A stretch of 64,000 bases of DNA from Halorubrum distributum JCM 10118 (GTDB lineage: Archaea > Halobacteriota > Halobacteria > Halobacteriales > Haloferacaceae): positions 62,001 through 126,000 of the forward strand of contig NZ_AOJN01000049.1 in assembly GCF_000337335.1 (NCBI RefSeq), in the 5' to 3' direction. The notes under the pieces are model-generated. The model was given only the letters and a program-made list of their open reading frames with translations, searched no databases and was not told the DNA's origin. Below, piece by piece: positions 436 to 41,393 of this stretch (the first letter of the stretch is position 1; each line of letters starts with the position of its first letter). The position numbers and the translations under genes were made by a program.

Positions 436-537
436 CGAGTGTTCGTTCGATCGGCGGGAGGGAATAGATTGTGGCGAGAGGGTTCGTCGGACGGGTGACA
501 GGGTCGTAGGGTTTCGAGAGGAGTTTAAATAGGGTAC

Positions 538-790
538 GCGGTGGCGCGTGCCTGCGAGCGGCCGCTAGGCCGCGAGGAGCACGCGCGAGGGAGTCGGTCG
601 CCGAGCGAAGCGACGGCGACCGACGAGGCTGGGGAGGTGAGAGGTGCGGTGCGGTGCCGTGCGGGGTGGGACTCGAAGGGGCAGTCGCGAGGCCGCAGTA
701 GGCGACGTAAGCACCGCAGCGAGCGAAGCGAGCGAGGAGCGCAACGAGCGTACTGCGGCCTCGCGACTGGGGCTTCGGTGGTGTTCTCTG
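538..790 (+). repeat. Dispersed structured intergenic element, copy A (candidate ncRNA)
   Basis: One of six related intergenic copies. It opens with GCGGTGGCGCGTGCC, 10-15 nt after a TATA-like GTTTAAAT at 523-530. Three helices are visible. P1 is 544-551 with 579-586 around a GCGGCC/GGCCGC hairpin. P2 is 593-602 with 615-624 (10 bp, no mismatch). P3 is 682-700 with 751-769 (19 bp, no mismatch). Fixed blocks between helices include GAGGCTGGGGAGGTG, GGGACTCGAAGGGGCAG and GACGTAAGCACCGCAG. Helix sequences differ from the other copies but remain paired. Open frames across it are not conserved between copies, so I do not call protein. A structured RNA is inferred; transcription is not shown. Confidence 0.75.
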
Positions 791-895
791 TCGAGACGCA
801 GTCAGTCGTTTATAAGCGACCGACCAGGGCATCGGTGGTACTCACGGCCGATTCGCAATCAGACGTTTATAAGTGAGCGCCTGGGATTCGGTGGT
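767..895 (+). repeat. Tail units of copy A, about 57 bp period with TTTATAA boxes
   Basis: Three degenerate units begin at 767 (CTGGGGCTTCGGTGG), 824 (CCAGGGCATCGGTGG) and 881 (CTGGGATTCGGTGG). The last two are preceded by GTTTATAAG boxes at about 809 and 865. The spacing is 57 bp. The same arrangement follows copies E and F. The TTTATAA boxes look like haloarchaeal TATA elements, so each unit could carry its own promoter. That is inference. The array ends just before the msrA stop codon on the other strand. Confidence 0.6.
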
Positions 896-910
896 TTCCA
901 CCGACGATCC

Positions 911-1450
911 TTACGCCTTGACCTTCTCGCGGAAGCGCTCGCGGACCTTCTCCACCTTCGGCTGCGCGTGCATCGTACAGTAGGCGTCGGCTGGGTTCTT
1001 CTCGAAGTAGTCCTGGTGTTTCTCCTCGGCGCGGTAGAACGTCTCCAGCGGCTCGACCTCGGTGACGACCTCGTCGTCGTAGCCGCCCTCCTCGTCGAGC
1101 GCCTCGACGTACCCCTCGGCGACGTCGCGTTGCTCGTCGTCGTGGTAGAGTACGATCGACCGGTACTGGCTGCCGACGTCCGGGCCCTGTCGGTTCAGCT
1201 GGGTCGGGTCGTGGACGGTGAAGAAGATCTCCAGGATGTCCTCATACGAGAGGGCGTCGGGGTCGTACTCGACCTGAACGACCTCCGCGTGACCGGTGGT
1301 GCCGGTACACACCTCGCGGTAGGTGGGGTCGTCGGCGTGGCCGCCGGCGTAGCCGGAGGTGACGCTCTCGACGCCGTCGAGCTCCTTGAACGCCGCCTCG
1401 ACGCACCAGAAACAGCCGCCGCCGACCGTCGCGGTCTCGGTGTTCGTCAT
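911..1450 (-). CDS. msrA: Peptide-methionine (S)-S-oxide reductase MsrA
   Basis: Repairs S-epimers of methionine sulfoxide in proteins using thiol reductant, in the cytosol. The product has 179 residues, normal for the family. The signature GCFWC lies at residues 12-16 with catalytic Cys13. The conserved GYAGG (33-37), GHAE (53-56) and QGPDVGSQYRS segments follow, and a C-terminal Cys158 could act in resolution. A TATA-like ATTAATAC about 28 nt before the ATG suggests a leaderless transcript. The gene is bracketed by repeat copies A and B in inverted orientation. Confidence 0.97.
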   Translation of the reverse strand: MTNTETATVGGGCFWCVEAAFKELDGVESVTSGYAGGHADDPTYREVCTGTTGHAEVVQVEYDPDALSYEDILEIFFTVHDPTQLNRQGPDVGSQYRSIVLYHDDEQRDVAEGYVEALDEEGGYDDEVVTEVEPLETFYRAEEKHQDYFEKNPADAYCTMHAQPKVEKVRERFREKVKA

Positions 1451-1553
1451 AGAGACGTGTAGGCCCCGCAGACGTATTAATCACGCGTGGCGCGAGACGT
1501 GAGGGTGGACTGGTTCGGTTATTTATAAATAATCGATGCCGGATCGACGACGG

Positions 1554-1882
1554 AGACCTCCAAAGCCCCAGTCGGCGAGGCGGGCGCACGCTCGCTGCGC
1601 TCCTCGGTCGCTCGTTACACTCGCTCCCTGCGGTGCTTACGTCGTCATCAGAACGCGGAGCGTTCTGATTGGCTCACGAGAGCTTTGCTCTCGTGAACGC
1701 CTGCGCCCGCCTCGCCGACTGCCCCTTTGAGTCCCGCCCCGCACAGCACCGCAACCGCGCCTCACACCTCCCCAGCCTCGCGGCTCACGGCTCGCGGCTT
1801 CGCCGCTCGCGTTCGCCGCGTCCCTCACGCGGTGCTGACTCGCGGCCGCCAAGGGCGGCCGCTCGCAGGCACGCGCCACCGC
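1554..1882 (-). repeat. Dispersed structured intergenic element, copy B (candidate ncRNA)
   Basis: Reads on the minus strand from GCGGTGGCGCGTGCC at 1882-1868, behind a TATA-like box at 1889-1898. The P3 helix pairs 1569-1588 with 1702-1721 over 20 bp without mismatch, in a sequence different from copy A. The inner P1 hairpin is lengthened to 9 bp (GCGGCCGCC/GGCGGCCGC). The P2 region is the most divergent of the family. Between P3 and the GACGTAAGCACCGCAG block sit two extra hairpins (about 1648-1697) that occur in the same order in copy E. The copy ends in CTGGGGCTTTGGAGG and then a TTATTTATAAATAA palindrome near 1518-1531. Confidence 0.75.
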
Positions 1883-1995
1883 GGATCCATCTATAAACGA
1901 TCGTCCGCCCGTTTGCGCCCTGTTCCCGAACGCGTTCGCCCGGCAACCCTGCGGTCGAACGGTAGACCTTTGCCGTCGCCCGCTCCAGTTCGGGT

Positions 1996-11747: not shown

Positions 11748-11950
11748 CGTCCCTCGGCGGCCGAGTTTCGAGCGATGGAGTCGGCGTCGATATAACTTCA
11801 TTTTTAAATTGGATTCTCAAACCGAATGCCTTGTAGGCGATCGATGCCGGGAGTAGGTATCACACAGTTGTGGAGTGGTCGTTTATAAATAATCGAGCCG
11901 TGCTGCTGTTGGCGGTTTATGAGTTGCTGACGGCTCTGTGGTGGCAATTT

Positions 11951-12191
11951 TCAAAGCCCCAGCCGGGAGGACGCCGCACACTCGCTGCGCTCCTCGCTCG
12001 CGTTGCTCGCTGCGGTGCTTACGTCGTCTGCGGCGTCCTCCCGGCTGCCCCTTTGAGTCCCACCCCCGCACGGCGACCGCACCTCACGCCTCCCCAGCCT
12101 CGTCGATGGTCCTCCGCTTCGCTCCGGACCATCGACTCCCTCGCGCGTGCGGTTCGCGGCCTGTCGGCCGCTCACTGGCACGCGCCACCGC
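11951..12191 (-). repeat. Dispersed structured intergenic element, copy C (candidate ncRNA)
   Basis: Reads on the minus strand from 12191, between the two trkH genes and antisense to them in direction. P2 pairs 12102-12112 with 12126-12136 (11 bp, perfect). P3 pairs 11960-11978 with 12029-12047 (19 bp, perfect). The P1 outer helix uses the same GCGCGTGC/GCACGCGC pair as copies A and F. The upstream TATA-like box is weak (CTTAAAAA, 12206-12213). A strong TTTATAAAT lies past the 3-prime end at 11882-11890. The rest of the 543-bp gap has no recognisable gene. Confidence 0.75.
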
Positions 12192-12290
12192 ACCGTCTTT
12201 TACGATTTTTAAGAATCCACGGACCCCTACCGACGGCTTCTTATCGCATCGGAAAGCTACGACGCACATCGGAACCTCTGAGGGACACTC

Positions 12291-20307: not shown

Positions 20308-20393
20308 TTCGGGTCTACTCACGAGGCGATCGTTCCCGAAGGCTCACTCGCTCATTTATAAATGGCTAACCGCGGATCAGTGGCGGACTCCTC

Positions 20394-20653
20394 CAAAGCC
20401 CCAGCCGTGAGGCGGACGCACGCTCGCTGCGCTCCTCGGTCGCTCACTGCGTTCGCTCCCTGCGGTGCTTACATCGCCTGCGGCCGCCTCCCGGCTGCCC
20501 CTTTGAGCCCCGCCCCGCACGGCACCGCACGGCACCGCACAGCGCCTCACGCCTCCCCAGCCTCGTCGGTGGTCCTCCGCTTCGCTCCGGACCACCGACT
20601 CCCTCGCGCGTGCGACTCGCGCCCTGCGGGCGCTCGTCGGCACGCGCCACCGC
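20394..20653 (-). repeat. Dispersed structured intergenic element, copy D (candidate ncRNA)
   Basis: Reads on the minus strand from 20653 (GCGGTGGCGCGTGCC), with a TATA-like TGATAAAT at 20657-20664. P2 pairs 20565-20575 with 20589-20599 (11 bp, perfect). P3 pairs 20402-20420 with 20479-20497 with two mismatches in 19. The inner P1 hairpin is GCGCCC/GGGCGC, where other copies have GCGGCC/GGCCGC, a compensated change. A CATTTATAAATG palindrome lies at 20353-20364 beyond its 3-prime end. The rest of the gap before coaBC holds only that gene's promoter. Confidence 0.75.
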
Positions 20654-20723
20654 CGACCATTTATCAGCAGTTTTCAGGAGATCGCGCCGGGGTTGGTCAT
20701 TCGACGCCGTTCCGCAACGGCAT

Positions 20724-34975: not shown

Positions 34976-35000
34976 GGCGGATCGTCCGAGAGACACGCAG

Positions 35001-35310
35001 CGTCGGCGTGCGCCGGTGAGCGGCCCGCAGGGCCGCGAACCGACCGCACGAGGGAGTCAGTCGCCGGAGCGAAGCGGAGGCGACTGACGAGGCTGGGGAG
35101 GCGTGAGGCGCGGTTGCTGTGCGGGCGGGACTCGAAGGGGCAGTCGCGAGGACGAAGCCCGGCGTTCACGAGAGCGGAGCTCTCGTGAGCCAACCAGAAT
35201 GCGGAGCGTTCTGGTGACGACGTAAGCACTGGAGAGAACGAACGGAGTGAGCGACCGAAGCGCGCAGCGAGCCGCGCGAGTCCTCGCGACTGGGGCTTTG
35301 GCGGTGTTCG
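35001..35310 (+). repeat. Dispersed structured intergenic element, copy E (candidate ncRNA)
   Basis: The 5-prime block is altered (GTCGGCGTGCGCCGG), but the outer P1 helix still pairs (CGTGCG with CGCACG). P2 pairs 35056-35065 with 35079-35088 (10 bp, perfect). P3 pairs 35141-35153 with 35280-35292 (13 bp, perfect). Between P3 and GACGTAAGCAC lie the same two hairpins found in copy B: TCACGAGAGC/GCTCTCGTGA and CCAGAATGC/GCGTTCTGG. The remaining gap up to the glutaredoxin gene holds tail units with TTTATAAG boxes. Confidence 0.75.
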
Positions 35311-41114: not shown

Positions 41115-41126
41115 AACGAGGAAGAT

Positions 41127-41393
41127 GCGGTGGCGCGTGCCGGTGAGCGGCCGACAGGCCGCGAACCGCACGCGCGAGGGAGTCGCTGGCGCCGGCGGCG
41201 CCAGCGACGAGGCTGGGGAGGTGTGAGGTGCCGTGCGGTCGCGGATGGGTGGGACTCAAAGGGGCAGCCGCGAGGAGCCCGTAGGTGACGCAAGCACCGC
41301 AGCGAAGGAACGGAGTGACTGAGTGAGGAGCGCAGCGAGCGTACGGGCTCCTCGCGGCTGGGGCTTTGGCGGTGTTCGCCGTCGAGTCGCCAA
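41127..41393 (+). repeat. Dispersed structured intergenic element, copy F (candidate ncRNA)
   Basis: The best-preserved copy. P1 outer helix pairs 41133-41140 with 41168-41175 around GCGGCC/GGCCGC. P2 pairs 41182-41193 with 41197-41208 (12 bp, perfect, sequence unlike other copies). P3 pairs 41265-41283 with 41342-41360 (19 bp, perfect). The fixed blocks GAGGCTGGGGAGGTGTGAG, GGGACTCAAAGGGGCAG and GACGCAAGCACCGCAG lie at family positions. It fills the 498-bp gap between the CitE-like and MaoC genes, where I see no protein gene. Confidence 0.78.

Follow-up and report, generated by a model that had tools for sequence, protein, structure and literature searches.

The analysed window is a 64-kb stretch of DNA, positions 62001-126000 of contig C49 in the 3.3-Mb draft genome of a Halorubrum (G000), and it harbors six intergenic copies, A to F, of one element. 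The genus follows from RibH, which shares up to 98% identity with that of named Halorubrum species. Profile HMM and covariance model searches of the window recovered all six at the places where the preliminary description had put them, and no seventh, with A, E and F on the plus strand and B, C and D on the minus strand. Copy A spans 534-786 (+, nhmmer E 5.6e-67) and comprises a 5' domain (P1 and P2), a G-rich linker and a 3' core at 664-777 (+, cmsearch R1 127.9 bits), the latter made of GGG-Y-GGG, the helix P3a (CGAAG/CTTCG), a GGG/GGG loop, P3 and P4. Free folding of single copies A and F reproduces the helices of the model. The sequence further displays a TATA-like box, TTTAAAT, at 524-530 (+) and, at 768-896 (+), the tail of copy A, a ~57-bp unit that is repeated and degenerates, with TTTATAA at 809 and 866. 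Copy B, a full element with an additional two-hairpin insert, occupies 1553-1887 (-, nhmmer E 7.8e-60), a site whose orthologue is occupied in most related Halorubrum species; its 3' core including the insert was delimited from the sequence at 1559-1741 (-), the covariance model by itself matching 1588-1648. The remaining four are full elements found by both HMM and covariance model: C at 11950-12195 (-, 3' core 11952-12065), D at 20387-20657 (-, 3' core 20394-20515), E, also with the two-hairpin insert, at 34997-35309 (+, 3' core 35123-35300), and F, followed by a second tail unit, at 41122-41377 (+, 3' core 41247-41368). The syntenic gaps of the congener G016 hold no element at the sites of C, D and F.

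The six oriented copies align through long conserved blocks, in the order of parts originally described, and the alignment bears out the reported exchange of CAGTC/GACTG in A, B and E for CAGCC/GGCTG in C, D and F. The long helix is perfect or near-perfect in all six, with mismatches in copy D. The unit that defines the family is a core of ~115-125 nt, formed by GGG-Y-GGG-ACT, P3a, three facing Gs per side, a long P3 and P4 with tandem G.A pairs. Full copies, 41 of which were aligned, contain P1 (GCGCGUGC/GCACGCGC, which covaries in its inner part and has tandem G.A), the P2 hairpin, variable in sequence and length, a G-rich linker with the invariant TGGGGAGG, and the 3' core. Concerning the fixed blocks, which the preliminary description regarded as single-stranded, two of them are in fact paired: the R preceding AAGGGGCAG has as its partner the Y that follows CTGGGGCTT, this pair being A-T in 77, G-C in 16, G-T in 2 and A-C in 1 of 96 copies. 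CRAAG/CUUYG constitutes helix P3a, located beyond an invariant GGG/GGG internal loop, and becomes GAAAG/CTTTC or GGAAG/CTTCC in other families, a further compensated change. Likewise, the fixed block GACGTAAGCACCGCAG forms one arm of another helix, in which tandem G.A pairs are stacked; P4 keeps one varying pair (C-G 48, G-C 13, U-A 3; n=64) as well as its stacked tandem G.A pairs. Two additional pairings were discarded on the alignment, namely that of GAGUC before P2 with GACUC before P3, whose variants do not keep it, and a pseudoknot between UGCGGUGC and GCACCGCA, which is inconsistent among copies.

Nor does CTGGGGCTTTGGCGG close the element in Halorubrum, where it is followed by a ~57-bp tail unit, which includes TTTATAA and is tandemly repeated in many copies. 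In 114 tails TTTATAA lies at 41/42 and 98/99 nt after TGGGGCTT, recurring 57 nt further on because of this repetition. The unit (CTGGGGCTTTGGAGGTGTTCGCCGCCGATCYGCAGTCAGCCATTTATAAGCGAGCGG) is present one to five times after Halorubrum copies, is near-identical in some and degenerates outward, and shows one TATA-like box per unit (window 768-896; loci L054, L056, L065 and other tails). The two-hairpin insert, of ~60-90 nt and with arms such as ACGAGAGC..GCTCTCGT and CAGAACGC..GCGTTCTG, is found within B and E and at L212 and L218, as well as within copies of other haloarchaeal families, and is possibly a smaller repeat nested in a larger one. In other families the GAGCACCGCA..GAGGAGCGCAG module of P4 is also seen in the 5' domain, hence twice per element (L218-L230; genomes G036, G041 and G052).

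The fold of the family is under selection, as the preliminary description had proposed from compensated changes, and this is strongly supported by the comparison of pairing with shuffled, slid and exchanged controls. Among 107 distinct diverse copies (alignment A5, which was fitted to the model and hence leans towards it) 86.1% of the cells pair, against 64.6% in shuffled alignments, and the covariation score is 0.50 against 0.14, a value that none of 500 shuffles reaches; double changes occur in 31 of the 32 pairs. The 64 copies of alignment A4 yield 91.2% of pairing cells against 68.6% shuffled, dropping to 33-42% when partners are slid by 1-3 columns. Exchanging arms between copies lowers Watson-Crick pairing of P3 from 92% to 70% (96 copies) and pairing of P2 from 86% to 67%, while the outer part of P1 (82.8%, 81.4% swapped) yields no covariation evidence because it hardly varies. 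Folding energies of copies A and F lie 4.9 and 5.9 SD, respectively, below those of dinucleotide shuffles. Paired mutations maintain the fold in almost all copies, so that the family probably has a function.

A second characteristic of the core is its G content. It starts with GGG-Y-GGG and presents two more G triplets opposite each other between P3a and P3, thus four G3 tracts, whose 12 Gs are each 88-98% conserved in the diverse copies, with T, C or rarely G as the loop nucleotide between the first two. Of 173 scoreable copies, 149 retain the four tracts unbroken (74/89 diverse, 75/84 Halorubrum), several of the deficient ones being register shifts. Four conserved G3 tracts with a short loop agree with the sequence criterion for a G-quadruplex, and a three-tier quadruplex stacked between P3a and P3 would be the best explanation, because a long, otherwise paired helix keeps three facing Gs. 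It should be noted that a protein binding to the G-rich sequence would conserve the identical letters. Haloarchaea maintain a high intracellular K+ concentration, which strongly favours G-quadruplexes.

Concerning the nature of the folded strand, the well-paired columns of the diverse copies (n=98) hold 50 G-T against 13 A-C combinations (p=3e-6), therefore the fold has one strand polarity; the counts for Halorubrum helices (30 G-T, 24 A-C), with no G-T excess, do not say so. The proposal of a structured RNA is supported in part: a TATA-like box almost never stands upstream of the single short copies of other genera (2 hits in 58, within 70 nt), and G-T pairs are tolerated in single-stranded DNA too. 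In the reading favoured here, it is one strand, always the same and most likely RNA, that would be active. The TATA-like box reported ahead of the element is real in Halorubrum copies, beginning 17-21 nt before GGCGCG in most of 128; however, a box starting ~20 nt before GGCGCG is rather close for a transcript with the whole P1 5' arm. Upstream of single copies GACCA is over-represented (15 observed, 5.6 expected).

The search of Halobacteria genomes that had been suggested for the family was carried out with R1, a covariance model of the 3' core, and found it in 227 of 292 genomes (~78%) and 62 of 76 genera, with no match in ~124 genomes of the phylum from outside Halobacteria. Positive genomes carry from one to well over a hundred copies. 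In G000, where a first genome search scored 40 candidates giving 43 match segments, almost the whole 458-kb contig contains 23 copies, some partial or interrupted, i.e. ~50 per Mb and, by extrapolation from this contig, ~165 per genome. Copies also sit at or near contig ends (end of C49, 458423-458512; C14; C59), therefore the repeat probably broke the draft assembly. Halorubrum trapanicum has at least 117 matches (123 candidates scored), Salinarchaeum laminariae 97, and Haloferax 4-5 in three species and 2 in a fourth, and the searched genomes of Haloquadratum, Halopenitus persicus and Halarchaeum show none. Rfam at its gathering threshold returned nothing on the element, the sole match in the window being a tRNA elsewhere, and eight diverse loci gave nothing in Rfam 15 at E<=0.5. 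That no named family matches holds, then, for Rfam and for the literature searched, which left most subscription journals outside and offered no description; as far as the searched papers show, the family has no earlier description.

The copies are intergenic. Where a short copy of another genus has a co-oriented gene downstream, the start codon follows the core at a median distance of 107 nt, and in 48 cases below 150 nt the distance is 90-99 nt in 17 and less than 90 nt in 3, values that are approximate since genes were called with a simple codon-usage script. The preferred ~95 nt may reflect mere intolerance of changes closer to promoters; by eye, a promoter-like sequence stands ~30 nt before the start codon, in the interval that separates the gene from the element. 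In 20 of 23 cases neighbouring copies have a head-to-head arrangement, usually with spacers of 15-27 nt, each copy pointing at a divergent gene with its 3' end ~95-145 nt away. The spacers are mutually alike, of the CGACCAGCC / GGCTGACCAACCG kind (L303, L307, L310, L315, L319 and others), suggesting a shared binding site. A riboswitch or leader of one pathway was rejected, given that the neighbours are unrelated (msrA, ribH, HAD hydrolase, carboxypeptidase and others) and that the downstream gene appears to own a promoter between the element and its start codon.

Our preferred reading, to which we assign a probability of about one half, is that of a Halobacteria-wide structured noncoding family that works as a single strand, most likely RNA, with a quadruplex core, and acts locally between genes. 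The G3 tracts would form the three-tier quadruplex between P3a and P3, aided by haloarchaeal K+, and the core would be bound by a host protein or affect the polymerase, its action staying local, between genes and just outside promoters. Tentatively, the dispersed copies may terminate or insulate transcription, or else give order to the intergenic region. Gains of copies would be rare, plasmids may ferry copies between genomes and resident copies would exchange segments by gene conversion. The Halorubrum versions, to which a 5' domain, a TATA box and tandem tail units are added, may be independent transcription units. Points against this reading are the missing G-T excess in Halorubrum, the promoterless short copies and the lack of a functional theme among neighbouring genes. 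In addition, orientation relative to neighbouring genes is mixed; the overall preference is weak, and in Halorubrum it disappears or is inverted, so that a terminator or insulator tied to one orientation becomes less likely.

Distinctly less probable, though the closest competitor, is a non-autonomous mobile or selfish element, for which the fold would be a signal to a replication or transfer enzyme acting in trans and intergenic regions would be where insertions are tolerated. It agrees with a copy number ranging from 0 to at least 117 between related genomes, with neighbours lacking a theme, with carriage by plasmids, and with the comparison of G000 and G016, where 6 of 11 comparable sites have the element in common and 5 are occupied in one species and empty in the other. 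Also in its favour, homology of more than 1.5 kb between the Haloferax-like loci L266/L267 and L282 ends exactly at the 3' end of the element (CTTTC), as if this were a junction or recombination point. Against it, a near-identical pair is missing among 41 copies in G000, the best reaching 87% identity with identical patches up to 85 nt, on which grounds a recently active transposon was rejected. Neither terminal inverted repeats nor target duplication were seen at five pairs of occupied and empty sites, whose flanks are too diverged to place junctions, nor was a linked transposase seen, and no IMG/VR contig matches either of two exact patterns. Moreover, old copies at orthologous sites remain folded. 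The site of copy B, the gap between msrA and ribH, is occupied in 13 of ~20 Halorubrum loci and empty in the rest; the element lies ~110 bp from ribH in the same orientation, essentially full length in 11 of the 13, and these orthologous copies are 77% identical, against 79% for paralogues, with the fold intact. The long P2 variant and the two-hairpin insert, for their part, turn up at different sites in different species. Such divergence, together with the shared blocks and patches, is in line with copies that are seldom gained or lost, exchange segments and are selected for their fold; it speaks against a recent transposition burst. At the same locus, msrA is enclosed by the inverted copies A and B (window 534-1887) and reads the other way in several further species of the genus (L098, L099, L102, L103), as expected from a recombination-driven inversion between the two elements.

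Plasmids bear on a further, unlikely alternative, according to which the fold works as single-stranded DNA and the element later spread through chromosomes. It might, for instance, provide transferred plasmids with a priming site or single-strand promoter in their leading region, like Frpo next to ssb in the F plasmid. A query with copy A matched 4 plasmid records and suggested exclusion from plasmids, an idea dropped when the plasmid version, taken from Haloferax-like genomes, matched 117 records, usually with one copy each and with haloarchaea as the listed hosts. Many of these plasmids are typed MPF_T, and in most of those inspected a divergent gene for an RPA-like or 'DNA-binding protein' (OB-fold match weak, below Pfam's cut-off) starts ~350-470 bp upstream, its place being taken in the remaining ones by a TFB gene, a TnpB gene or another gene. 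The short copies devoid of TATA boxes and the balanced G-T and A-C counts of Halorubrum would also suit a DNA strand, as would the tandem G.A pairs and GCGAAGC loops, which are stable in DNA as well. However, Halorubrum copies do have TATA boxes, most chromosomal copies lie outside transferred regions, and the RPA link comes from a sample of plasmids. Viruses were dismissed as carriers given the IMG/VR result; phage records contain just one 27-nt match, an exact one to the P4 hairpin in two pleolipoviruses (JN882264 and JN882266, HRPV-2 and HRPV-6), and one weak hit. Less probable still is a multigene family of trans-acting noncoding RNAs, components of an RNP, each Halorubrum copy then being a gene composed of TATA box, structured body and tail, since more than 100 redundant genes would not each be kept, promoterless short copies keep the identical fold and some complete genomes have none, despite the fixed-distance TATA-like box, own 5' domain and tail in Halorubrum and the independence of orientation.

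Returning to the locally acting structured family, several known systems share some of its traits. The PATE, MITE and SMR repeats of Haloquadratum walsbyi are likewise short, noncoding, dispersed haloarchaeal repeats with palindromes (PMC3119063), PATEs being derived from IS605-type ends (PMC3119063); the present element, unlike PATEs, has a complex covarying fold and no adjoining TnpB gene in the ten TnpB loci scanned. An identity with TnpB omegaRNA or PATE was rejected, as R1 reached at best 16.9 bits (E 0.15, chance level) over these ten loci and genome G058 has 38 element matches and no PF07282 gene. The omegaRNAs of TnpB and IscB (HEARO) are also structured, possibly multicopy and associated with mobile DNA, but here there is no Rfam match and no linked nuclease, and the Halorubrum 3' end has a conserved tail unit instead of a variable guide. 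REP/BIME, ERIC and Correia-type bacterial repeats are similarly high-copy, intergenic and close to gene ends or promoters, although mostly simple hairpins confined to few species, whereas this multi-helix fold extends across an archaeal class. The arrangement proposed for the core, a quadruplex stacked between two helices, recalls the in vitro selected Spinach-type RNA, which is artificial and two-tiered, the three tiers here being deduced from conservation alone. Frpo/ssi of conjugative plasmids, finally, likewise combines a structure with a nearby gene for an ssDNA-binding protein, whereas most copies here are chromosomal.

In its boldest form, which we consider rather doubtful, the preferred reading would make this a natural RNA class with a helix / three-tier G-quadruplex / helix organization, present in most haloarchaea and, in some lineages, in more than 100 individually maintained copies, and acting between genes as a new transcription-insulating or recombination-promoting element suited to a molar K+ cytoplasm. 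Few structured noncoding families of archaea would be as numerous or as widespread. In practical terms, repeats of this sort interrupt assemblies and may be mistaken for promoters or sRNA genes. For the organisms themselves, the family would supply Halorubrum with a means of intergenic regulation or recombination, and it would offer a testable natural quadruplex-in-duplex fold in cells whose cytoplasm favours quadruplexes.
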